A DNA stretch of 64,000 bases. Origin: Niabella sp. (GTDB lineage Bacteria; Bacteroidota; Bacteroidia; Chitinophagales; Chitinophagaceae). A program made the translations under genes and the position numbers. The stretch is taken from positions 1 to 64,000 of the forward strand of contig JAPUDO010000019.1 of the NCBI GenBank assembly GCA_027493055.1, written 5' to 3'. Of this stretch, positions 2,464-41,553 are shown in pieces. The notes under the pieces were generated by a model. It searched no databases. It worked only from the letters and a program-made list of their open reading frames with translations, and had not been told where the DNA came from. Every line of letters starts with the position of its first letter. Within the stretch, counting starts at the first letter, position 1.

Positions 2464-2493
2464 AATTTCAAATTAACTTTGGTCTTTGACAAC
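2464..2493 (+). repeat. solitary 3' half of the type II-C CRISPR repeat
   Basis: These 30 bases are identical to the last 30 bases of the 46-bp repeat in the array at 13.4-15.5 kb, in the same orientation. The 5' 16 bases of the repeat are absent. It keeps the -7 box TAACTTTG at 2474-2481 but has no TTG at -33 spacing. The distance to the array is about 11 kb and no second solitary copy was seen. Confidence 0.9.
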
Positions 2494-2576
2494 ATATGAA
2501 CAATGTTGCCGGGGATAGGTGCCGTTGCAAAAACACTTAAGGCGACCCTTGGCAAAACCGAAGGCCCTTTTTTATT
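2487..2576 (+). ncRNA. tracrRNA-like small RNA without an anti-repeat
   Basis: Directly after the half repeat the sequence resembles the 3' part of the tracrRNA at 21941-22017. In 2522-2544, the block beginning CCGTTG and ending AAGGCG matches the tracrRNA block at 21972-21994 at 19 of 23 positions without gaps. Instead of an anti-repeat there is a self-complementary hairpin, CAACAT (2490-2495) with ATGTTG (2503-2508), whose left arm begins with the repeat's own last bases. A hairpin near 2547-2563 followed by T6 (2568-2573) looks like a terminator. Expected start is about 2487, a few bases after TAACTTTG. This could be a Cas9-binding decoy, a regulator, or a decayed second tracrRNA. Confidence 0.65.
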
Positions 2577-7502: not shown

Positions 7503-10500
7503 TTATTTTTGATGCTCCCATTTTTTTCTTTCTGTCATATAGTATACCAACGGAACCACAATTAACGTGAGTAGTGTGGAGACGATAGCGCCGAACACTA
7601 AAGAGATGGCCAGCCCCTGGAAGATTGGATCGAAAAGGATAACAACGGCACCAATAACTACTGCTCCTGTTGTTAATAAAATTGGAGTAGTTCTTACAGC
7701 GCCGGCTTCAATAATAGCCTGTTTTATAGGTATTCCGTCATTCAGCCTTATTTCTATAAAGTCTATAAGCAGTACCGAGTTTCTAACCATCACGCCTGCA
7801 AGCGCTATCATTCCTATGAAAGAAGTTGCCGTAAAAAATGCCCCCAGAAGCCAGTGCCCCAGCACAATTCCTATAAGTGAAAGCGGAATGGCTACCATCA
7901 TTACTATGGGTGTTTTAAAGTTCTGGAACCAGCCAACAATCAGCATGTAGATAATGATGATCACTACTGCGAATGCAGCGCCTAAGTCTCTGAATACTTC
8001 AAGAGTAACCTGCCATTCGCCGTCCCATTTTACAGTATAATTACTTTCGTCTTCGGGCTGGTTCATATATAACTCGTTCATGGTGTAACCTGAAGGAAGT
8101 TTGATTTTCTGAAGCTTTTCATCCATGCCCAAAATTGCATAAGCCGGGCTTTCCAGTTTTCCTGCCATGTCTGCAAGTACATACACCACGCGTTTCTGAT
8201 CTTTCCTGTAAATGGTTTTGTCAAGTTCTTTTTCCTGCACTTTTACCAAATCCCCTGCAGGTATCATTCCCATCTGCCCTTTAATCTTCAGGTCGGTAAT
8301 ATCCTGAATATTGGACTTATCGGCGTTGTTCAACTTCATTACAATATCAATCGGGTCGCTTGATTTTTCGTCATATAAATTTCCAATTGGATGCTGCCCT
8401 ATTAAGTAAGTGATGTTGCCCACAATTTGTTGTGGTGACACACCGTTTAACATGGCCTTTTCTTTATCGGGGACCAACTTAAATTCTTTTTGTGGCGCCT
8501 CAACCATCCAGTCAATGTCAACCACATCGTTTGTTTTTTTAAGAATATTTTCTACCTCTTTGGCTACTTTTACCTGGCCTTCATAATCAGGGCCGTAAAT
8601 TTCAGCAACAATTGTTGATAGTACAGGAGGCCCGGGAGGTACCTCAACTATCTTTACGTTGGCTCCATATTTTGCAGCAATCTTTTGAACTTCCGGACGT
8701 ATTTTTTTAGCTACATGGTGGCTTTGTTCTTTTCGGTTTTCTTTATGTGATAAATTTACCTGGATGTCCGCGCTGTTGCTGCTGCCGCGCAAATCGTAAT
8801 GCCGTACCAATCCATTAAATGTAATAGGCGCTGAAGATCCTACATAGCTTTGATAGTTCACCACTTCGGGAACGGTTTTCAGGTACTGTGCGATATCCTG
8901 CGAAACTGCGCTGGTTCTTTCCAGGGTTGTACCTTCGGGCATATCAACCACTACCTGTATTTCATTCTTATTATCGAAAGGAAGCATTTTTACAGCCACC
9001 CATTTAGTAAAGAATGCAATTACGGATATTAGCAATAACACGCCCGTAACGCCCATCATTATCCCTCTTTTTGATTTTGAGTGTAAGAGGGGCAGTTCCA
9101 GTTTTTTATAGATTTTGTAGATCCTGTTGGTTTCCAGCCCCTGCCCTTCTTTGTGCTGTTGCTCTCCTTTAACTTTTAATAAATGATATCCCAGGTAGGG
9201 CGTTACGGTTAAGGCTACAAATAAAGATAGCATCATTGCAATTGAAGCCCCTATTGGCATTGGCGACATATAAGGCCCCATCATTCCTGATACGAAAGCC
9301 ATTGGTAAAATGGCGGCAATTACTGTAAATGTTGCCAAAATGGTTGGGTTGCCTACTTCATTTATAGCATAAATAGCCGCTTGTTTAAAAGGCAACTTTT
9401 TCATATGAAAGTGGCGGTGCATATTTTCTGCAATAATGATACTGTCGTCTACCACAATTCCAACAACAAAAACAAGGGCAAAAAGAGTGATCCTGTTCAG
9501 CGTATACCCTAAAATATAGTAACTGAAAAGCGTAAGCGCAAACGTAAGCGGAACCGAGAAGAATACCACTAAGCCGCCGCGCCATCCCATAGCCAGTATA
9601 ACCAACACGGTAACTGCTAAAATGGCCACACCTAAGTGCATCAGTAATTCCGAAACTTTGTGTGAAGCAGTTTCCCCATAATTCCGGGTTACTTCTAAAT
9701 GAACATCGTCCGGTAGCAATGTCTTTTTAAGATCATCCACTTTTGATAAAATCCGGCCGGAAATTTTCATAGCATCGGCACCTTTTACTTTAGATACCGA
9801 AATAGTAACAGCCGGATATTCTGATTTGTATTTTTTGCTGTTTTCAACAGCATTCCCATAACCGAAACTGACATAATTGGCAGGATCAGAAGGCCCGTCA
9901 ATTACCGTTGCAACCTGTTTTAAATAAACCGGCATATTTTGCGAAGTTCCAATAACCAGGTGTTCTACATCTTCTGCAGAATTTAGAAATTGCCCTGTTG
10001 TTAAAAGATACTCTACATCTTTGGAGTTGAATTTTCCTGATTGTGCACTTCCATTGTTTGCCTGAATCATCTGCATTGCGGAAAGCGCATCCACATTAAG
10101 TCCCGCCATTTTATCTTTGTCAACAATTACCTGCAACTGGCGGTTTCTTCCTCCAATGGTTTTGGTAACCGATACGTCTTTTATCTTTTTGATTTCCGAA
10201 GAAAGTTCTTCACCTATCTGGCGCAACTGGTAGTCATTATAATTGGGATTGTCGCTCCATAGTGTAAGCCCAAGCATCGGCACATCATCAATAGAACGTG
10301 TTTTTACCATCGGTTCCATTACTCCCTGGGGGAACATGTTTTTATGCTTCATCAGTTCATCATAAAGCTTAACATAAGAGCGTTCCATATCTTCACCCAC
10401 ATAAAACTGAACAATGAGCATGGCCTGGCCGTTCATGGCCATAGAATGAATGTGTTCTACTCCTTTAATATTGGAGATAACCTGCTCCAGTGGCTTTACC

Positions 10501-10703
10501 ACGCGGCTTTCAACCTCTTTAGGGCTGGCACCCGGATAGCCTACCATTACGTCCGCCATCGGTATAATGATCTGTGGCTCTTCTTCTCTTGGTATTAATG
10601 TTGAACTGTATATACCAATAATCATTAACCCTATCATCAACAAAATGGTAAGTTTTGAATTAATGAAAAACTCGGCAATACGTCCTGCGAATCCTTTTTC
10701 CAT
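7503..10703 (-). CDS. RND efflux pump, inner-membrane permease (AcrB/HAE1-like)
   Basis: Proton-driven antiporter subunit of a tripartite pump. 1066 residues fits the family. Visible: first helix after MEKGFAGRIAEFFINSKLTI, a large periplasmic porter domain, a helix block from about residue 345, the TM4 proton-relay pair in VVGIVVDDSIIIAENM, a second porter domain, and a final helix block with IALAGVMVRNSVLLIDFIE. The two halves are internally homologous. It is transcribed after the membrane-fusion gene (75-base gap) and the TolC gene, so export runs from cytoplasm or periplasm to outside. Substrate is not evident; the DD pair argues for the drug/solvent HAE1 group rather than the metal CusA group. 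Confidence 0.93.
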   Translation of the reverse strand: MEKGFAGRIAEFFINSKLTILLMIGLMIIGIYSSTLIPREEEPQIIIPMADVMVGYPGASPKEVESRVVKPLEQVISNIKGVEHIHSMAMNGQAMLIVQFYVGEDMERSYVKLYDELMKHKNMFPQGVMEPMVKTRSIDDVPMLGLTLWSDNPNYNDYQLRQIGEELSSEIKKIKDVSVTKTIGGRNRQLQVIVDKDKMAGLNVDALSAMQMIQANNGSAQSGKFNSKDVEYLLTTGQFLNSAEDVEHLVIGTSQNMPVYLKQVATVIDGPSDPANYVSFGYGNAVENSKKYKSEYPAVTISVSKVKGADAMKISGRILSKVDDLKKTLLPDDVHLEVTRNYGETASHKVSELLMHLGVAILAVTVLVILAMGWRGGLVVFFSVPLTFALTLFSYYILGYTLNRITLFALVFVVGIVVDDSIIIAENMHRHFHMKKLPFKQAAIYAINEVGNPTILATFTVIAAILPMAFVSGMMGPYMSPMPIGASIAMMLSLFVALTVTPYLGYHLLKVKGEQQHKEGQGLETNRIYKIYKKLELPLLHSKSKRGIMMGVTGVLLLISVIAFFTKWVAVKMLPFDNKNEIQVVVDMPEGTTLERTSAVSQDIAQYLKTVPEVVNYQSYVGSSAPITFNGLVRHYDLRGSSNSADIQVNLSHKENRKEQSHHVAKKIRPEVQKIAAKYGANVKIVEVPPGPPVLSTIVAEIYGPDYEGQVKVAKEVENILKKTNDVVDIDWMVEAPQKEFKLVPDKEKAMLNGVSPQQIVGNITYLIGQHPIGNLYDEKSSDPIDIVMKLNNADKSNIQDITDLKIKGQMGMIPAGDLVKVQEKELDKTIYRKDQKRVVYVLADMAGKLESPAYAILGMDEKLQKIKLPSGYTMNELYMNQPEDESNYTVKWDGEWQVTLEVFRDLGAAFAVVIIIIYMLIVGWFQNFKTPIVMMVAIPLSLIGIVLGHWLLGAFFTATSFIGMIALAGVMVRNSVLLIDFIEIRLNDGIPIKQAIIEAGAVRTTPILLTTGAVVIGAVVILFDPIFQGLAISLVFGAIVSTLLTLIVVPLVYYMTERKKWEHQK

Positions 10704-10777
10704 AATAATTTGAATGAATTAGTGGGAGATTTTGAAAACCTATTAATGCTTGATTTTTATATCTGTACGTTTTCAGA

Positions 10778-11866
10778 TCATCTCACCTGAATTTTTGCGC
10801 CATTGTATAATTTTCCGTTGTGAGAAACGATGTAAGGCTCTTTAGCTGTAAGCCCCGATTGAATTTCAACCTGGTCTCCAAAAGATTTCCCGGTTTTAAT
10901 CCACCGTAACACTGCTGTATTTTGCGAGCTTACCACATAAATCCCTGTAAGCTGTCCGTTTTCAACTAGTGCATATTTTGGCACCATTATATTTTCCTGA
11001 AAATCCTGCTCAAAATTTCCACTTTGTTTAAATGGGAACTGCACATTCACAAACATGCCCGGCAATAAACCAGATGCATTATGTATATTGATCTTTACTA
11101 TGTATTGGCCGCCTGTATGGGCTGCAGACCTGCTGATTTCTGAAACCGTTCCGGAAACGGTTTTATTCATGGACTTTAAAGTGGCATCAACCGGCATACC
11201 AGTCTTGATACGGGTGATCTGCTGTTCTGAAACCAAAACCTGCGCCTGCAAAGATGATGACGACTCGATAGTAAGCAAGGGCATACCGGGACTTGCCATA
11301 TCGCCCTGCTCTGCAAATTTTGCAGTAATGGTTCCGGATATGGGAGCGGCAATGTTCGTATATCTGTATTGGGCGTTCACTTCGTTCTTCATTTGTTGTG
11401 CAGCCTGTAATCCGGCTTGTGCCATTTCGTATCGTGCGCGCATGTCGTCCAGCTCTTTTTGCGATGCACTTTGGTTCTTATACAAATTCTGAAAACGCTC
11501 ATAATCTTTTTTAGCAATATTATATCCAGCCTGTGCCTGCGAAATCTGGGCGCTTGCCTGTCCGCCTTTAGCCTGTATATCTGCGGCGTTAATACTTACT
11601 AAAAGTTGTCCGGCCTTAACGTTTTGGCCAACTTCAGCTTTTAGAGAAGTGATGTATCCCATCATTCTGGTAGAAACGTTTACTGAGTTTTTTGCAACCA
11701 GTTTGCCGCTGGCTGTGGCGAAAGAGCCTGCGGCACCCAAAGAAGATTTGTTGACTGTTACGGATACCGGAGCTCCGGAAACTGCGGAGGGTTTGTCTTT
11801 GTTTGAAGAACAACTTGCAAGTAAAACAATTGCAGAAAATAGAAATGAATAGAGATATTTTTTCAT
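10778..11866 (-). CDS. RND efflux membrane-fusion (periplasmic adaptor) lipoprotein
   Basis: 362 residues. The signal ends in a lipobox (VLLASCSS, Cys19), so it is a lipoprotein bridging pump and outer-membrane channel. The barrel-sandwich lipoyl halves are seen at VSTRMMGYITSLKAEVGQNVK-type sequence near residue 65-90 and near 170-190 (APISGTITAKFAEQGD), separated by a coiled-coil hairpin rich in Q, A and K, then the beta-barrel and the membrane-proximal domain ending in VQPR-like strands. It sits between the TolC and permease genes in one operon. Confidence 0.92.
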   Translation of the reverse strand: MKKYLYSFLFSAIVLLASCSSNKDKPSAVSGAPVSVTVNKSSLGAAGSFATASGKLVAKNSVNVSTRMMGYITSLKAEVGQNVKAGQLLVSINAADIQAKGGQASAQISQAQAGYNIAKKDYERFQNLYKNQSASQKELDDMRARYEMAQAGLQAAQQMKNEVNAQYRYTNIAAPISGTITAKFAEQGDMASPGMPLLTIESSSSLQAQVLVSEQQITRIKTGMPVDATLKSMNKTVSGTVSEISRSAAHTGGQYIVKINIHNASGLLPGMFVNVQFPFKQSGNFEQDFQENIMVPKYALVENGQLTGIYVVSSQNTAVLRWIKTGKSFGDQVEIQSGLTAKEPYIVSHNGKLYNGAKIQVR

Positions 11867-13376: not shown

Positions 13377-13422
13377 GAAGTGCTGTAACAATTACACTCC
13401 ATTAACTTTGGTCTTTGACAAC
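13377..13422 (+). repeat. degenerate CRISPR repeat at the cas2-distal end
   Basis: Only the last 22 bases (13401-13422) match the array repeat exactly; the 5' 24 bases are largely diverged. The -7 box TAACTTTG (13403-13410) survives while the -33 TTG does not. It is followed by a normal 30-bp spacer, so it still defines the first spacer. Loss at this end suggests the oldest end of the array. Confidence 0.85.
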
Positions 13423-15468
13423 ACCCGTGATATTAAGATCATGATTGATCGTGTTGTGAATTGCTTTCAATTTCAAATTAACTTTGGTCTTTGACAACAA
13501 ATGACCCCGTGAAGTATTCAACCCTGTAGTTGTGAATTGCTTTCAATTTCAAATTAACTTTGGTCTTTGACAACTCTTGATTATCATTTTCGGCATGTCT
13601 TGGCGTTGTGAATTGCTTTCAATTTCAAATTAACTTTGGTCTTTGACAACGGCGTTCAAATACTGTTCCCAGTGTTACAGTTGTGAATTGCTTTCAATTT
13701 CAAATTAACTTTGGTCTTTGACAACATACCCTCCGTCTTCTCCAATAGCTCCATTGTTGTGAATTGCTTTCAATTTCAAATTAACTTTGGTCTTTGACAA
13801 CGCGTTGTTCCGGATCTATTTGAATTACACCGTTGTGAATTGCTTTCAATTTCAAATTAACTTTGGTCTTTGACAACTGCGGGGCGTTGACACCTGCAGC
13901 AGGAAGTGTTGTGAATTGCTTTCAATTTCAAATTAACTTTGGTCTTTGACAACTATAATATGTACCACAGCGCTGATCACCTGTTGTGAATTGCTTTCAA
14001 TTTCAAATTAACTTTGGTCTTTGACAACACTTTTTCTGATTGATTTTTAAACATTTTGGTTGTGAATTGCTTTCAATTTCAAATTAACTTTGGTCTTTGA
14101 CAACAACTTCATTCCACTCCATCAGACAGCTACTGTTGTGAATTGCTTTCAATTTCAAATTAACTTTGGTCTTTGACAACTGAATACGCCATTTGAAGAG
14201 GGAGCCGACTGTTGTGAATTGCTTTCAATTTCAAATTAACTTTGGTCTTTGACAACACTCAATGAAAAATGTGACAAATGCCGCTTGTTGTGAATTGCTT
14301 TCAATTTCAAATTAACTTTGGTCTTTGACAACTAAAGAGCAATGAATAAAGAAGAAATACTGTTGTGAATTGCTTTCAATTTCAAATTAACTTTGGTCTT
14401 TGACAACAGCCGAGCAAATCAAAGAAGCGGGGTTTGAGTTGTGAATTGCTTTCAATTTCAAATTAACTTTGGTCTTTGACAACCCCCGCTTTCCATGGGC
14501 GGTAAAAGCGCCTGTTGTGAATTGCTTTCAATTTCAAATTAACTTTGGTCTTTGACAACAAATAATGGTGGCTGGCCTGGTGTAGGCAGTTGTGAATTGC
14601 TTTCAATTTCAAATTAACTTTGGTCTTTGACAACATCCAACGTGGTTGTATCTCCCGAATTGCTGTTGTGAATTGCTTTCAATTTCAAATTAACTTTGGT
14701 CTTTGACAACTAGCCCCGAAAAGGGCGTTTACCGCCTCTGGTTGTGAATTGCTTTCAATTTCAAATTAACTTTGGTCTTTGACAACGTCTGAATCGCGAA
14801 GACGGATATACTCACTGTTGTGAATTGCTTTCAATTTCAAATTAACTTTGGTCTTTGACAACATGGGATAAGCGTACTGAGCTTAATAGTAAGTTGTGAA
14901 TTGCTTTCAATTTCAAATTAACTTTGGTCTTTGACAACATCCTCCTTGTTTGGATTGCCCAACTTGAAGTTGTGAATTGCTTTCAATTTCAAATTAACTT
15001 TGGTCTTTGACAACATCTTAAATTACGGGCTGCAGCTTTGGGTGTTGTGAATTGCTTTCAATTTCAAATTAACTTTGGTCTTTGACAACCTTTCCCTTGC
15101 GGAAAATGTGTTTATTGTAGTTGTGAATTGCTTTCAATTTCAAATTAACTTTGGTCTTTGACAACACCGCCTATATTAATACCATCACCTACCATGTTGT
15201 GAATTGCTTTCAATTTCAAATTAACTTTGGTCTTTGACAACCCGCCTCTAAAGTTATACCCATCATCAGTAGTTGTGAATTGCTTTCAATTTCAAATTAA
15301 CTTTGGTCTTTGACAACCAAAAAATAGAATCACCAAAACGATTCCTGTTGTGAATTGCTTTCAATTTCAAATTAACTTTGGTCTTTGACAACATTATTGA
15401 ATCCATCGCCTTACAATTACCAGTTGTGAATTGCTTTCAATTTCAAATTAACTTTGGTCTTTGACAAC
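13423..15468 (+). CRISPR. type II-C CRISPR array, 27 intact repeats and 27 spacers
   Basis: The repeat is 46 bp, begins GTTGTGAATTGC and ends CTTTGACAAC, and I saw no difference between the 27 intact copies (first 13453-13498, last 15423-15468). Spacers are 30 bp except six of 29 bp (starting 13651, 13954, 14333, 14560, 15015 and 15318). The crRNA strand is plus, because the tracrRNA anti-repeat pairs with the repeat 5' part (18-19 continuous bases). Transcription therefore runs toward cas2, opposite to the cas operon. Uniform repeats suggest an active or recently active array. Confidence 0.97.
13454..13486 (+). promoter_or_regulatory. promoter contained in each CRISPR repeat (first intact copy shown)
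   Basis: Repeat bases 2-4 are TTG and bases 27-34 are TAACTTTG, 22 bases apart. That is the full Bacteroidota sigma-factor consensus (TTG, 17-23 bases, TAnnTTTG). Transcription would start near repeat base 40-42, just before the spacer. The same element recurs every 75-76 bp through all 27 repeats. Confidence 0.75.
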
Positions 15469-15586: not shown

Positions 15587-16835
<1,249 letters not shown>

Positions 16836-16840
16836 ATAGC

Positions 16841-17437
16841 TTAAATTAGGTCGTTCTCCAGTTTCGTATATTCTTCGAAATAGATTTGCTTGTCTTGATG
16901 TAAGGTATTGTATTGTTCGAGATTCGTAAATAGCTGTTCTGTTAATCCAGGATAGGCATTGGGGAATGTCTTCCAGGAGATCCAGGGCCAACTGCTCATT
17001 TCTTTTACGAACCTATGTTTGACAGGGTTGAGATGAATGTACAGAATCAGACTACGCAAATAAGCATCATCTGTTACCTCCTTCCTTTTAAAATTCTTTA
17101 TAAATAAAGATCCACGCCTCTTATAAACTTTATTAAACGATTGCGTATAGCTGCTGAAAAAATTAGAAAACTGTTTACTTAAAAAAGCGCTGCGCTGCTC
17201 AAACTTTTCTAAAGTTTGGAACTTTAGAAAAGTTAATGCTACCGCTTCTTCGCTTTTTATTTTAACCAACAGATGAAAATGGTTCGGCATCAGGCACCAG
17301 GCGATCGTTTCAGCTATCGGGTCGATATGCAAATGATATTTTTTCAAAAAGTATTCGTAGTTCTTCTCCTCTTTAAACAGATTATCATCACCGTTGGCAT
17401 GGTTGTAAATATGATAATATGTTGAGAACTCAAGCAT
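16841..17437 (-). CDS. REP-associated tyrosine transposase (Y1, HUH) inside the cas operon
   Basis: 198 residues of the Y1 transposase/RAYT family, single-strand DNA nickases that act on palindromic REP elements. The HUH motif is at His53-Phe-His55 (CLMPNHFHLLVKI). The catalytic Tyr is most likely Tyr97 (SSYTQSFNKVYKRRGSLF), followed by the usual basic FKRKEV and RSLILYIHLNPVKH blocks. Length and motifs look intact. It starts 4 bases after the cas9 stop and ends 5 bases before the cas1 start, so it is co-transcribed with them and not flanked by visible ends of a mobile element. Whether it takes part in CRISPR function is unknown. Confidence 0.93.
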   Translation of the reverse strand: MLEFSTYYHIYNHANGDDNLFKEEKNYEYFLKKYHLHIDPIAETIAWCLMPNHFHLLVKIKSEEAVALTFLKFQTLEKFEQRSAFLSKQFSNFFSSYTQSFNKVYKRRGSLFIKNFKRKEVTDDAYLRSLILYIHLNPVKHRFVKEMSSWPWISWKTFPNAYPGLTEQLFTNLEQYNTLHQDKQIYFEEYTKLENDLI

Positions 17438-17441
17438 AAGT

Positions 17442-20400
17442 TTATGCCTTTGAAATGTTGCCTAATCTATCCACATCAAGCTTAAAACACAGTTCTTTAT
17501 CTTTTATAAATTCAATTTTGTTCAATTGTGTATATTCAAGCTTATTCACAATAACGGTTGCTACAGATACGGGGACAGCATATAGCCGGCTCCCAGTGAA
17601 ACTAACGATCTTATAAATCCTGTTTACTTGCTCTTTCGATAGCTTACTGAAATCTATCCCATCAGCAGCCTCTTCTTCTTCCGTAGGTACATACACCAAA
17701 TCATTAGGAGATAAGCAGAATAATAACCGATGTCCTTTTTCATTAGTATCAGGTACAGAGCCTAAACCCTGCTTTTGTCTCTCGATGACAATATTCAATG
17801 GAATCGTATCATAGGATCTTTTTCCATCATTATCTGCATAAACAGCAAAGAACAGGTTCGTTCCTTTTGCCGCTTCAACATATTTGTGCTTCTTATTACC
17901 TGTTTCCCCAAGTGCAAACTTGCTTCCCAACTCAAAAATGCGGGCTTTATAAATAGGCTGATGCGCCTTACCATCATTAAATTGAACTATATTTTTATTC
18001 ATTTCCTCTAATCCCTCAGGCGAAAATGCAACCTCTGGATTATTGCCTTTGAAATTGAGGTAATTTTTTAATATCTTTTGAATGCCTGTATCAGTTATAG
18101 ATTCAATCGTTTTCAAATTAAATGAAGAATCAATATTCTTTCTTGTTGCCGTAAGAATCTTTCCTTTAAGAACTTTTATCCGTGGTAAATCAATTTTTCC
18201 CGAAACAGTGTCCTTATGCATCGGTTTGCGGATAGCCCAACTGTCTCCTTTGGTTTGAGAAACAAGTTCCCTGGTTTTCTTTCCATCTTTTTCTACAAAC
18301 TTCTCATATTTATTGCTCGTTTTGTTGATAACACGAACGTTTTGTTTAAAGCTTACCACTATTTTTCCCAATTGAGCTTTGGCATCTTGTGTAAAGGTTT
18401 TCCACGGTTTTAAATAGTCCTTTGGTACTCGCTTCTCTACTTTCTCTTCAGACTTGATCCAAACATCATTATCATTTTCAGCCTTCTTCCACTTGGGTAC
18501 CTCAATTGTTTCCATTTTACGAAGTTTTTGTGCAAGCCCCATCTGAAGGTGATACTTTTGAGATTTGGCATTCTCGTTGTTCAAGTATTGAATATGTTCC
18601 CTTGTTGCACAAGCAATCACCAATGCATCCAATGCATGATGCCGATGGTCGATACGCTTTTTTTGAAACCCTTTGGACAATTCCAATGGTACGGTTGGGA
18701 TAGCTTTCCCTTCAGTATTTTTAGATGTAAACTGGTCTGAGTCGGTCAACTTATTCATTCTTTCAAACCGTGGAAGTATCACTTCATTCCAAATATCATT
18801 CAACCCCCAATCCTGGCGAAGTGTTTGGGTAATTTTACCATTACCCGGTAATACATTTTTACTTCTGAATTCCTCATCGTTTCCGTCTTCACTACGTACA
18901 ATATTTGACAATATATTAGAAATAAATTTACTGGTGTAACGAGTATCATTCAGTTGCCGCTCAATCATGGCATCAGGAATTTCTTCGAGTAAAAGTTTTC
19001 TTTTCTTGGGCTGGTTTCTGGAATAATGATTTTTTATAAAATCTTTATACTCCGTTTCTGTAAGCACTTTAAATTGCTTATCACCATCCTGTATAATTTC
19101 ACCAGCATGTTTTTTTATAAATGCAAACCCCAGTTGTTTATCCTTCAATTTATTAACCGCTGATTCACAAATAATTTTATTGCTAAAGCTATCATCAAAA
19201 TATCTCGACTGTGGAATGATATGTTCTATTTCATATTCAGATGTAAATAGTTTACCCAACGGAATTATTTTACCCGTGTAAGGCGAGCGATAGCGCTGCT
19301 CCAACCACAACTTGTATCGCTGCAACTCAGATTTGGACGGTTGCGATGTTTTACTGATTTTCAAAATATCCTCAGGCACATCGTAGGTACTCAAAGCCCC
19401 GTCTTCAAATATTTTCAATGCTTCCTGTTGCATTGGTGAATGAGGACGCACATTTTCAACATTCAGTTTACCGTCTGAATTTTCTTTTAACTCAATCAAG
19501 AGTTCTTTCAATCTTAAGTTGGTCGCCTCATTATCAGAAATGATAGTAGTCAATCGTTTCCTCTCTTCAGCAGTGTTACGCATTTCACGGCCGAGTTCTA
19601 CGTGAATTTCATTGAAAAAATCCTTTTTACCGTTACCGTGCTTCTCCCAAATATCTCCCACTACACGCAAAGTTTCCATTACTACCTGTTCAACAATCGG
19701 ATTGCGTAATGAGTGTTGTTTGAACTCTTCCAGGTATTTTTTAAGATCTTCTATTGATTGCCATTTGCCCGTAATTTCAGCTTCCGAATGCCGGTCGTAA
19801 ACTACGTATTGTGCCAGCCAAAGCGGCAATCCATGAAAATCGGTTTCTGTTTGCAATTGATGTTGAGCTGCTTTCTCACGTACGCGGTTTTTGATAGTTT
19901 CGTCAAACTCCCCATTAATAATATTGGCAATTCTTTTTTGCGTTGACAGGTCTACATTTTCCCAACTCCAATATTTGTCGATACGCATTAACGGCAACAG
20001 TTTTTTAATCGCCTTTTCAGAAAAAGAACCGTATTCGCTTTTAAACGGCGGAAACTTTCTGAAATTTTCGACAAAAGAATTTTTGTCTAAATCATATTTA
20101 GCAGCAAATGAGTGCAATGCTTTTTCAAATTCAATTTTATCTGTAACTGAATAGATTAAATGCCATAATTGAAGTTCTCTTTCCACAGTCAGAAACCCAT
20201 CGGGAATATTTTCAACTTTGGCCAACCTTCTTCGTAACTCATACCCTGTTTCGTTCATCGGATATTTTTTCGACTCATCCTTTTCGTTATCATACACGTA
20301 ATTCCAACGATATTTCGAGATTTCTATCGTCAAAATTTTTCCTTTCAAACCCTGTGGCTCCAATAAATATTTGATAATACTTTTATGATCAACCTCTTTT

Positions 20401-21845
20401 TGCTGCATTAGAAAATCAAATAACCGAGCCCTATCTTCATCACTATTAATATAGGTTTGCGTAACATCCACTTCATCTTCCCGTCTGAAAATCTTCAGGT
20501 TATACATCCATTGCCAAATACGAAATTCCTGATATAACGGGTGCGATTTCGGAATGGCTTTCAGGTATTCCTTCTTTTCAAATTCTTTTCCGTCCTTACT
20601 TTTTGCTTTATAAAAGCGATACTCCAGGGAGCAATTGCTGATGGATGACTTTTGGCTTTTTAAAGGACGCTGATAAAAAATGATATCATTCACAAACAAA
20701 TGCACAAAGTCCCGTTTACTCAATTGTATTTGATGTGCTTCATTATTTCGATATAATTCCCTGACACAATCACTGTATAAATCATCGGTAAATAATTCCG
20801 GCTGTAGTTCAATTTGCTTTTTAAGTATAGCTTCCAGTTCTTCTTTATAAAACTTACGTTCTATTGTACGGACTAATTTGCCCTTTATTTTTTGTTTTGG
20901 ATTGAGCAGTAGGTTTTCGTATATATATGTACCAACGATTTTGCCGGAGTGTTCAATATCCTGTTCTGTTTTCTTCTTAATCAATGTCCAGTCGTCCTCA
21001 CCAGGTGCGCGAAAACTTCTCCTTTCGTTTCCTTCTTTATCCGTTTTGACAGAGCCATCATCGTTTAGTTCTGTCGTTACAATAAAATCCCTGATTTTAT
21101 TATTCCAGTCAGATAAATCAATTTTACTTGAGCGCCTGTAAATCCATCCGTTTTCTAAGTGGATAGAATACCATATCTCCCCTTTCCTGTTAACCTCAGG
21201 ATCAGGAACCACGTCCACTACTTTTAAGGAATAAAACTCTACCAGTTTATTTGCCTTTTCTTCCTCTTCCTCACCTCGCAGTTGGTAATACCCGCGCTTT
21301 TGATTAAAATTCAGAATAAGCCATGCCAATTCCTCTTTGCTTATTTTATGGGCAATGGCTTTTTTACGCAGATAATAAATCGTCCAGTCATAAGGTATTT
21401 TAATATCCTGACCGTTGGCTTTAAAATCTTCCAGCATTTCATTGAAAGATTGCTGAAAAAGGAATTCAAATTTTCCTTCTTTATTTTTCTTCCAGGCTAT
21501 TTTGGGCTCCGTTTCCTCCACAAACTGTCCCAACCTGTTTTCAAAATCAAGCTCCTTTGTGTAATGTTCAGGTAAAAAACCAAGTACATACAACACCCGA
21601 TGTAAGCGGGAACGGCGTAGTAAATGACGCTCACGCAAACGGCGTGTACTTCTGAATCTTGTTCTGTCCGCTGTTTGGGAAACAGAATTCCCTTTCCCAA
21701 ACTCATCTTTAATATCCTGTGTCATGGGAATAATCCGGCTTCCCATCCCGAGTATTTTTCCTTCTTTATTTTCAAAATCGTTTTGGACGAGCGCCCATCC
21801 TATTGAGTTTGTTCCCAAATCAAGTCCAAGTATCGTCTTAGTCAT
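17442..21845 (-). CDS. cas9: type II-C Cas9 RNA-guided endonuclease
   Basis: 1467 residues. Cas9 cuts both strands of target DNA guided by crRNA:tracrRNA. RuvC-I is at the start (ILGLDLGTNSIGWA, Asp9); an Arg-rich bridge helix follows (RTRFRSTRRLRERHLLRRSR); RuvC-II has Glu750 (VELGREM); the HNH domain has His875 (IEHIIPQSRYFDDSFSNK); RuvC-III has His1070 and Asp1073 (HHALDALV). All catalytic residues are present. The large size and lack of csn2 or cas4 fit the long Bacteroidota II-C group. It is first in the operon with the transposase, cas1 and cas2, and divergent from the tracrRNA, with the 16-bp palindrome between them. Confidence 0.97.
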   Translation of the reverse strand: MTKTILGLDLGTNSIGWALVQNDFENKEGKILGMGSRIIPMTQDIKDEFGKGNSVSQTADRTRFRSTRRLRERHLLRRSRLHRVLYVLGFLPEHYTKELDFENRLGQFVEETEPKIAWKKNKEGKFEFLFQQSFNEMLEDFKANGQDIKIPYDWTIYYLRKKAIAHKISKEELAWLILNFNQKRGYYQLRGEEEEEKANKLVEFYSLKVVDVVPDPEVNRKGEIWYSIHLENGWIYRRSSKIDLSDWNNKIRDFIVTTELNDDGSVKTDKEGNERRSFRAPGEDDWTLIKKKTEQDIEHSGKIVGTYIYENLLLNPKQKIKGKLVRTIERKFYKEELEAILKKQIELQPELFTDDLYSDCVRELYRNNEAHQIQLSKRDFVHLFVNDIIFYQRPLKSQKSSISNCSLEYRFYKAKSKDGKEFEKKEYLKAIPKSHPLYQEFRIWQWMYNLKIFRREDEVDVTQTYINSDEDRARLFDFLMQQKEVDHKSIIKYLLEPQGLKGKILTIEISKYRWNYVYDNEKDESKKYPMNETGYELRRRLAKVENIPDGFLTVERELQLWHLIYSVTDKIEFEKALHSFAAKYDLDKNSFVENFRKFPPFKSEYGSFSEKAIKKLLPLMRIDKYWSWENVDLSTQKRIANIINGEFDETIKNRVREKAAQHQLQTETDFHGLPLWLAQYVVYDRHSEAEITGKWQSIEDLKKYLEEFKQHSLRNPIVEQVVMETLRVVGDIWEKHGNGKKDFFNEIHVELGREMRNTAEERKRLTTIISDNEATNLRLKELLIELKENSDGKLNVENVRPHSPMQQEALKIFEDGALSTYDVPEDILKISKTSQPSKSELQRYKLWLEQRYRSPYTGKIIPLGKLFTSEYEIEHIIPQSRYFDDSFSNKIICESAVNKLKDKQLGFAFIKKHAGEIIQDGDKQFKVLTETEYKDFIKNHYSRNQPKKRKLLLEEIPDAMIERQLNDTRYTSKFISNILSNIVRSEDGNDEEFRSKNVLPGNGKITQTLRQDWGLNDIWNEVILPRFERMNKLTDSDQFTSKNTEGKAIPTVPLELSKGFQKKRIDHRHHALDALVIACATREHIQYLNNENAKSQKYHLQMGLAQKLRKMETIEVPKWKKAENDNDVWIKSEEKVEKRVPKDYLKPWKTFTQDAKAQLGKIVVSFKQNVRVINKTSNKYEKFVEKDGKKTRELVSQTKGDSWAIRKPMHKDTVSGKIDLPRIKVLKGKILTATRKNIDSSFNLKTIESITDTGIQKILKNYLNFKGNNPEVAFSPEGLEEMNKNIVQFNDGKAHQPIYKARIFELGSKFALGETGNKKHKYVEAAKGTNLFFAVYADNDGKRSYDTIPLNIVIERQKQGLGSVPDTNEKGHRLLFCLSPNDLVYVPTEEEEAADGIDFSKLSKEQVNRIYKIVSFTGSRLYAVPVSVATVIVNKLEYTQLNKIEFIKDKELCFKLDVDRLGNISKA

Positions 21846-21932: not shown

Positions 21933-21940
21933 TATATTTG
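21933..21940 (+). promoter_or_regulatory. tracrRNA -7 box
   Basis: TATATTTG matches TAnnTTTG. Initiation a few bases downstream would begin the RNA inside the anti-repeat. No TTG lies 17-23 bases upstream, where palindrome A is found instead. Confidence 0.65.
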
Positions 21941-22017
21941 CAATTGAAAGCAATTCACAATAAGGATGATTCCGTTGTGAAAACATTCAAGGCGGGGCAA
22001 CTCGCCTTTTTTTATAT
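21941..22017 (+). ncRNA. tracrRNA of the type II-C system
   Basis: The anti-repeat (21942-21960) is the exact reverse complement of 19 bases near the 5' end of the CRISPR repeat; after one mismatch the match extends a few bases further upstream. It is followed by a nexus-like segment (AAGGATGATTCCGTTG), a linker, and an 8-bp hairpin with a GCAA loop (21989-22008, AAGGCGGG with CTCGCCTT) that runs into T7, a rho-independent end. The layout matches known Cas9 tracrRNAs. It is divergent from cas9. Confidence 0.92.
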
Positions 22018-40389: not shown

Positions 40390-41553
40390 ATGAACCGTTA
40401 TTTAATGACTATCCTGCTGGCTTTGGTATTTACCAATTGCAGGAAAACCCACTCCCATCCTATTCCTGTCACAGAATGTCTTTCTGCTAACCTGGTTAAT
40501 GAACAAATTGTACCGGCACCGGGTATTAAGAGCATTATAGATAACTATACCTCCAAAGAACTGCCAGGCATTACATTTATAGCACGTAAAGGCGGCCAGT
40601 ACTGGCAATACAACAGCGGCCGCTATAATAAAGAGCAGGGAGCGGCAATGAAACCCTGCCTTGTATGGCCCGGGTACAGCATCAGCAAAATGTACACGGC
40701 CACCGCTATCCTGAAACTGGCAGAAGAAAACCGGATCAGGCTTGACCAGAAAATAAACACCTGTTTGCCAGCTAGTGTGCTTTCAAAAATCCCTGGTGCT
40801 GATAAAATAACAGTACGTATGCTGCTGAACCATAGCTCGGGTATTGAAAACTTCTGGCAAAACCCCGGTTTTGTAGCCGCATATATGGAGAACCCCGCAC
40901 GCACTTATAGCCTGAATGACTATCTTGAGGCCAGCCAGGAGCGCCTTTTCGAGCCTGGGACAGATATCTCTTATTCTAACACCAACTACCTTCTTTTGTC
41001 CGTTATCATTGATCATATAACCGGACAAAATCATGAAAAGGCTTTTCAAAAGTATATTTACAACCCCCTTTCCTTATCAGCCACATTTTATAAAACGCTC
41101 CCCGCATCTCAGCAAAATAATACGCCCAGCCTGTATGCAGATACGGATGGCAGCGGCTATCTTATAGACTATACCGAGCTTTCTCATGCACAATTCCATA
41201 ATGAATCTGGCAGCAACAGTCTTATGGCTACACCAAAGGATTTTGTAGATTTTATTCACGGTCTCACACATGGCAGATTACTGAATACTGCTTTCTTTTC
41301 AGAAATGAAAAAGGAATACGCAGGCAATGATGGCGCTGACATATACGGGCTGGGCCTGGAATATTTTGAAAAAAGCGGCACTAAGCTGTATGGCTACAGC
41401 GGCAGCAGCTTTGGAGGGAGAACCCTGCTGCTTTATAATCCCAAAACAGACGTCAGCTTTTTTGTAGGCGTAAATGCAGGCGCTGAACTGGGAGGTCCGG
41501 TACTGGAAACCATTGCGGCACTTATGGATGAGCTTATTTCCAAACTGGCATAA
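40390..41553 (+). CDS. serine hydrolase of the beta-lactamase/DD-peptidase fold, lipoprotein
   Basis: 387 residues. The signal ends in a lipobox (VFTNCRKT), so it is anchored outside the cytoplasm. Catalytic motifs of class C-type penicillin-binding hydrolases: SISK (in PGYSISKMYTATAILKL), Tyr-Ser-Asn (DISYSNTNYLLL) and the third motif in YSGSSFGG. It would act on cell-wall peptides, D-amino acid esters or beta-lactams. It is monocistronic, preceded by site 1. Confidence 0.87.
   Translation: MNRYLMTILLALVFTNCRKTHSHPIPVTECLSANLVNEQIVPAPGIKSIIDNYTSKELPGITFIARKGGQYWQYNSGRYNKEQGAAMKPCLVWPGYSISKMYTATAILKLAEENRIRLDQKINTCLPASVLSKIPGADKITVRMLLNHSSGIENFWQNPGFVAAYMENPARTYSLNDYLEASQERLFEPGTDISYSNTNYLLLSVIIDHITGQNHEKAFQKYIYNPLSLSATFYKTLPASQQNNTPSLYADTDGSGYLIDYTELSHAQFHNESGSNSLMATPKDFVDFIHGLTHGRLLNTAFFSEMKKEYAGNDGADIYGLGLEYFEKSGTKLYGYSGSSFGGRTLLLYNPKTDVSFFVGVNAGAELGGPVLETIAALMDELISKLA

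Follow-up and report, generated by a model that had tools for sequence, protein, structure and literature searches.

Tracr-L of Streptococcus pyogenes is a natural single-guide RNA, derived from the tracrRNA and operating without a separate crRNA. Small RNAs of the scaRNA kind are defined by their expression and by their action together with Cas9 or tracrRNA in the available text of PMC13431127 and PMC6199352, where a unit resembling a single-guide RNA is also predicted in Listeria. Racrs are presented in the accessible part of PMC10651486 as repeat mimics of viruses and plasmids. Promoters can be embedded in the repeats of type II-C arrays, with the box TAnnTTTG, according to excerpts of PMC10309648, and loss of cas genes by deletion is mentioned for type I-B in the portion available of PMC5704556. 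Recombination between an array and a tracrRNA gene was not described in the titles and abstracts of the papers found on CRISPR loss by recombination and on locus remnants. We analysed a stretch of 64,000 nucleotides from a Niabella sp. genome (contig JAPUDO010000019.1, hereafter the window), in which a solitary half repeat is joined to a tail resembling that of a tracrRNA. This site, at 2464–2576, is probably a recombination scar, a relic of a type II-C CRISPR-Cas locus.

The site and the intact II-C locus of the window

The site and its neighbour are composed as follows.

1863–2381 (−): Phage_lysozyme neighbour (Pfam PF00959, E 1.6e-41)
2464–2493 (+): half repeat, the 3' 30 nt of the 46-nt II-C repeat, identical at 30/30 positions to the array repeats at 13.4–15.5 kb on the same strand
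2474–2481 (+): TAACTTTG, inside the half repeat, a putative promoter that fits the Bacteroidetes promoter box TAnnTTTG
2494–2523 (+): unrelated sequence of 30 nt, interpreted as a spacer, equal in length to the array spacers (periods 75–76, 46-nt repeat)
2524–2576 (+): diverged tracrRNA tail with an imperfect, poor terminator-like hairpin and T6 (19/23 block at 2522–2544; tail-model match R1 at 2522–2565)

The intact II-C locus of the same window consists of the following elements.

13401–13422 (+): half repeat at the array start, followed by a spacer at 13423–13452 and the first full repeat at 13453, the same build as the site
13453–15468 (+): intact II-C array of 27 full 46-nt repeats, each starting with GTTGTGAA
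15587–15982 (−): cas2 (TIGR01573, 77.8 bits)
15927–16991 (−): cas1, type II (TIGR03639, 306.1 bits)
17442–21845 (−): cas9 (TIGR01865, 411.8 bits)
21936–22015 (+, approximate ends): tracrRNA, with the anti-repeat at 21936–21960 and the tail from 21972

Comparison with the array repeat indicates that only the 3' 30 of its 46 nt are present at 2464–2493. The anti-repeat of the tracrRNA pairs within the 5' 25 nt of the repeat, and about 10 nt of that stretch remain at the site, upstream of the expected start. The first-pass annotation of this DNA had described the 3' 30 bases of the repeat standing alone, in the same orientation and about 11 kb from the array, the tracrRNA-matching block, the retained −7 box and the phage-type lysozyme next door, as well as the lack of an anti-repeat. 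All of these observations hold, and we likewise saw no anti-repeat complementary to the repeat within 2464–2576. It had further described an ending in a hairpin and T6, of which the T6 (2568–2573) is evident and the hairpin is only a poor terminator-like one, its right arm appearing shortened in our reading of the sequence. The spacers of the window array are 29–30 nt long, and the final CC of the 30-nt segment may instead be part of the tracrRNA portion. The segment had no close match in the loci compared, its 22-nt core was not found in viral contigs, and its structure did not rise above that of shuffles. Searches of Rfam returned no match for the whole window at the gathering level, nor for 2300–2750, L263 and L156 at the E-value level.

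The 19/23 match of the tail exceeds chance within the window. Among all stretches on both window strands, only the tracrRNA itself (23) and the block at 2522–2544 (19) agree with tracrRNA positions 21972–21994 at 18/23 or more; the next best stretch reaches 17/23, which is also the top match among 20,000 mononucleotide shuffles of the 83-nt segment. The conserved tracrRNA tail GTTGTGAAAACA reads GTTGCAAAAACA at the site, the tail core GTTGTG having become GTTGCA, and the core of the tail agrees with the tracrRNA of its own genome at 16/20 positions, whereas the half repeat is perfect. We also built a model from 19 other tracrRNA tails, leaving the window site out and including the tracrRNA of the same genome. 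The site scored 12.3 bits, compared with 61.1 for the real tracrRNA, corresponding to E 0.0052 in the window and E 0.47 genome-wide. A model search with the tracrRNA, which the first-pass annotation had proposed, did find the site in the window, and the score taken by itself would be poor support for the tail genome-wide.

Further features were noticed in this genome. A second solitary half repeat (23/24) is located on contig C96 at 40420–40443 (L009 2421–2444, −), upstream of an ORF at L009 461–2233. A clear tracrRNA-like tail was not found at this second half repeat, and its homology beyond the repeat is weak, with equal scores in 3/1,000 shuffles and 14/1,486 window stretches, and is not claimed. 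Between cas1 and cas9 of the window lies an ORF (16841–17437, −) resembling a REP-associated tyrosine transposase (NF047646, 61.8 bits, below the cut-off of 80). A 10/16 match at 2419, upstream of the half repeat of the site, was considered as a decayed 5' repeat half and rejected at a chance expectation of 0.24.

Fusions of repeats and tracrRNA tails in other Bacteroidota

The tail model was scanned over 394 genomes of the family, 396 of the order and 395 of the class, in sets that overlap, with stricter filters in the large scans. From among the matches listed, 65 were read by eye with their flanks (22 + 20 + 23), chosen mostly because they were 5'-partial, second in their genome or low-scoring; as these were selected matches only, no frequency is claimed. 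Four of the 65 are fused to CRISPR repeat sequence, namely those in G003 (same genus), G536 (same order), G752 (same class) and G777, the last with repeat and tail joined directly, no spacer lying between them. Scanning genome contigs with a sequence pattern gave 32 loci, which by eye comprise two tracrRNA tails, one ordinary array (L231) and 29 that are neither. The two tails, in a Bacteroidales MAG (L218, genome G401) and a Prolixibacteraceae MAG (L234, genome G402), are probably further fusions, as judged with a pattern that itself fixed the CC before GTTG and allowed 14–44 nt to CCGTTG. Within the genus, the fused pattern was present in 2/17 genomes, G003 and the genome studied here (G000); the tail as a DNA query against the same 17 genomes found only itself, missing the G003 fusion that the model later recovered. 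A loose version of the fused pattern was discarded, as it matched 288 of the 394 family genomes with per-genome counts resembling those of the backward control. The first-pass annotation had proposed looking for the same pair in related genomes, and fusions of the same build do recur there, so that the tail is not without a conserved copy.

Cas9 was sought genome-wide with TIGR01865 in G000, G003, G401, G402 and G536. Among the four genomes of this set other than G000, G401 and G536 gave no match, G402 gave a weak one below the cut-off (20.7 bits), and G003 has a Cas9, which the window Cas9 used as a query missed, a failure that we do not count as evidence of absence. No cas1, cas2 or cas9 was found within 14–20 kb around the fusions of G003, G401, G402, G536 and G752. 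The Cas9 of G003 is encoded elsewhere in its genome together with an array and a tracrRNA of another type, and the tail of the G003 fusion matches the tracrRNA tails of G008 and G011 at 43/44 positions and is not of G003's own type. The surroundings in G402 and G536 look like ordinary chromosome by eye, and the terminator hairpins of G003, G536, G402 and G401 fold. Other genomes contain tracrRNA tails that lack a repeat or are split (L161, L162, L170, L171 and L312), and six loci (L158, L161, L171, L310, L311 and L316) carry tandem tracrRNA pairs or a tracrRNA with an orphan tail, some of the pairs being of two types.

An array-tracrRNA scar should show a repeat part, one spacer length and then the GTTG of the tail, and the window site displays this build with 30 nt from the repeat end to GTTG. 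The same distance is 30 nt in G003, G536 and G752, 29 nt in G402 and 41 nt in G401, and the spacers measure 28–30 nt in G003's own array (periods 75–77, repeat 47) and 30–31 nt in a relic array of G752. The 30-nt segments share no sequence among members, a difference to be expected of spacers. In all six spaced fusions GTTG is preceded by CC, as in tracrRNA, and by TTCC in G536. In the window, G016 and G003, the array likewise opens on a half repeat, followed by a 30-nt spacer and GTTGTGAA; the G587 array starts with one or more interrupted repeats and then 30 nt, that of G015 starts with a near-full repeat, and the array starts of G011, G008 and G004 lie outside the stretches compared. In 10/11 loci, the window included, the stretch common to repeat and tracrRNA is exactly GTTGTGAA, on the same strand and with the array upstream; the exception is G003's own locus with its tracrRNA of another type. 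This 8-mer occupies 21974–21981 in the window tracrRNA.

Two of the fusions have array ancestry. The G536 element can be aligned for about 89 nt to the region where the array of its congener G587 starts, including an insertion inside the repeat, and the flanks alone score 64 compared with 28 for the best of 2,000 shuffles, so that the 5' side of G536 matches the flank of an intact locus in a relative. The relic array of G752 has 10 repeat ends at intervals of mostly 138 nt; its repeats carry internal insertions, and the last end stands 30 nt before the tail. In the stretches compared, neither the window site nor that of G003 showed flanking synteny with CRISPR loci of the genus. In the G752 relic (L328 about 9881–11320, −), the sequence inserted in the repeats is palindrome-like (TCCGCC...GGCGGA), and one spacer occurs at least three times.

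Origin and possible activity of the fusions

The II-C layout, with array and tracrRNA gene on one strand at opposite ends and the cas genes between them, might make such fusions possible. The first 8 nt of the repeat (GTTGTGAA), recurring in the tracrRNA tail, could act as a recombination site, and a single deletion joining an array repeat to the tracrRNA at this 8-mer would take out the cas genes and the anti-repeat along with the remainder of the array. The product would be the first half repeat of the array, then one 30-nt spacer, then the tail of the tracrRNA including its terminator. The array-start alignment of G536, together with the lack of a TIGR01865 match for Cas9 in this genome, directly supports the scar reading, which we hold with greater confidence for G536 and G752 than for the window. 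We infer the deletion mechanism and the same origin for the window site. Its source might be another copy of the locus or a strain that lost the locus, with decay of the tail since then, and the scar is probably inert.

Some observations stand against a scar in the window. An intact locus with the identical repeat remains 11 kb away in the same genome, which would require a second copy or a transfer. A perfect half repeat beside a decayed tail would be unlike one neutral relic of a single age; our guesses are that the half repeat was kept perfect by gene conversion from the array or by selection on the promoter. The breakpoint could possibly lie upstream of GTTG, where the CC is as in tracrRNA, and the 30-nt spacing would then be unexplained; a longer stretch in common could favour CC-bearing repeats. 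The G401 fusion with its spacing of 41 nt does not fit and may instead be a degenerate tracrRNA. The unequal condition of the two parts would also suit a tracrRNA gene that decayed independently behind a promoter half derived from a repeat, without array-tracrRNA recombination. The half repeat appears young and the tail old, the half repeat on C96 stands alone, tails that are repeat-less or split exist elsewhere, and the CC or TTCC before GTTG is that of a tracrRNA. We regard such a history as unlikely, as it leaves unexplained both the 30-nt spacing in four genomes and the array ancestry of G536 and G752. A decayed tracrRNA locus was one of three options in the first-pass annotation and comes closest among them, with the likelier source being a fusion of the first array unit with a tracrRNA tail.

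The site contains CAACAT (2490–2495) and ATGTTG (2503–2508), from which the first-pass annotation derived a self-hairpin like a guide-less single-guide scaffold. This hairpin is within chance. The module folds with z +0.57 against shuffles and the whole window RNA with z −0.14 and −0.10, compared with −4.43 for the real tracrRNA; the 6-bp stem was attained in 4.3% of random modules and in 1/28 array units. Moreover, CAAC comes before GUUG, opposite to the order in the real repeat:anti-repeat stem GUUGUG:CACAAU. The whole RNAs of G003, G536, G752 and G402 fold better than shuffles (z −1.8 to −2.6), which also counts against the scar reading, and the variable modules of the other fusions do not (z −0.74 to +0.71). 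We attribute the better whole-RNA folds to the terminator and to a GACAAC:GUUGU pairing that descends from the ends of repeats.

A functional Cas9-associated small RNA, similar to a scaRNA or a single-guide RNA, might start at about 2488 from the promoter half of the repeat and engage or restrain Cas9 with its tail. The retained promoter box and T6, the recurrence with folding terminator hairpins in G003, G536, G402 and G401, and the cognate Cas9 of this genome would agree with such a function, and a Neisseria II-C scaRNA binds Cas9 according to the available text of PMC13431127. However, the window RNA has no excess structure (z about −0.1), the core GTTGTG is altered to GTTGCA, two of the four other hosts examined gave no Cas9 match and one a weak match only, and the 30-nt segment has no sequence in common between members, which leaves a functional RNA quite unlikely. 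A wider scenario would combine array-tracrRNA recombination as a regular route of II-C collapse with scars of which some stay expressed as chimeric RNAs, a 30-nt guide-like leader plus a tracrRNA tail, that occupy Cas9, the window scar being a built-in brake on immunity beside its intact Cas9 locus; taken as a whole, we consider this scenario very unlikely.

The first-pass annotation had also considered an RNA anti-CRISPR or decoy. A Racr-like decoy carried by a mobile element could be suggested by the phage-type lysozyme adjoining the site, by an ORF about 1.7 kb from the G401 fusion that resembles a phage-type lysozyme by eye, and by the occurrence of repeat-derived units on viral contigs. 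No homologue of the site was found in phage records, plasmid records or the viral-contig patterns tried, the surroundings of G402 and G536 look chromosomal, and the tracrRNA-pairing half of the repeat is missing, and we consider such a decoy highly unlikely. The decoy idea is unsupported, yet testable, as the cognate Cas9 is still in this genome.

The viral contigs gave observations of their own. The tail pattern gave 47 loci, comprising a canonical tracrRNA (L057) and 46 loci without tracrRNA features by eye; none of nine loci found with the fused pattern has a tracrRNA tail by eye. The canonical II-C tracrRNA (L057 988–1049, −; IMGVR_UViG_3300013936_000003) is near an ORF that by eye resembles a tyrosine integrase, and an element may have inserted at the tracrRNA gene. 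L018 (11315–11383, −; IMGVR_UViG_3300048575_000373) has a half repeat, about 31 nt with an anti-repeat-matching piece TGCAATTGAAA and then a 5' repeat half. As this viral contig carries phage-structural-like ORFs, the unit is possibly a phage-borne crRNA-like unit or an RNA anti-CRISPR. Apparent single II-C repeats, with a 5' half, a promoter-like box and a repeat-like end, occur on L069, L073, L075, L078, L081 and L089/L090 and are candidates for solitary repeat units.

If the scar reading is true, a II-C locus would carry its own route of loss, with the 8-nt match of repeat and tracrRNA bracketing the cas genes, and how often CRISPR is lost via array-tracrRNA recombination would be directly measurable. 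As fossils of vanished CRISPR systems, scars would then preserve a spacer along with the tracrRNA type that belonged to the missing Cas9, as exemplified by G003, where the type of the scar differs from the present tracrRNA type. In sequence scans, a scar of this kind can pass for an RNA anti-CRISPR or a scaRNA, which is what happened here.

Comparison with known systems

The site would resemble the scaRNAs of type II, as far as these are described in the available sources, in being a repeat-homologous, small-RNA-like unit outside the array with signals resembling a promoter and a terminator. Unlike them, it lacks the tracrRNA-pairing half of the repeat and has no pairing with an anti-repeat. 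With the Racrs of the accessible part of PMC10651486 it may share a solitary repeat sequence behind a promoter, with 30 of the 46 nt of the repeat present. It differs from them in being chromosomal and outside a recognised virus or plasmid, where a lone lysozyme gene adjoins it, and in being fused to a tracrRNA tail, the word tracrRNA being absent from the main text of PMC10651486. As the source of a putative single tracrRNA-derived RNA the site can be likened to tracr-L, but it has neither an anti-repeat nor a defined guide. Orphan arrays and locus remnants left after cas loss are alike in that repeat and spacer are kept and the cas genes are gone, as in G536 and G752, whereas the present remnant continues, at the common 8-mer, into the tail of a tracrRNA.
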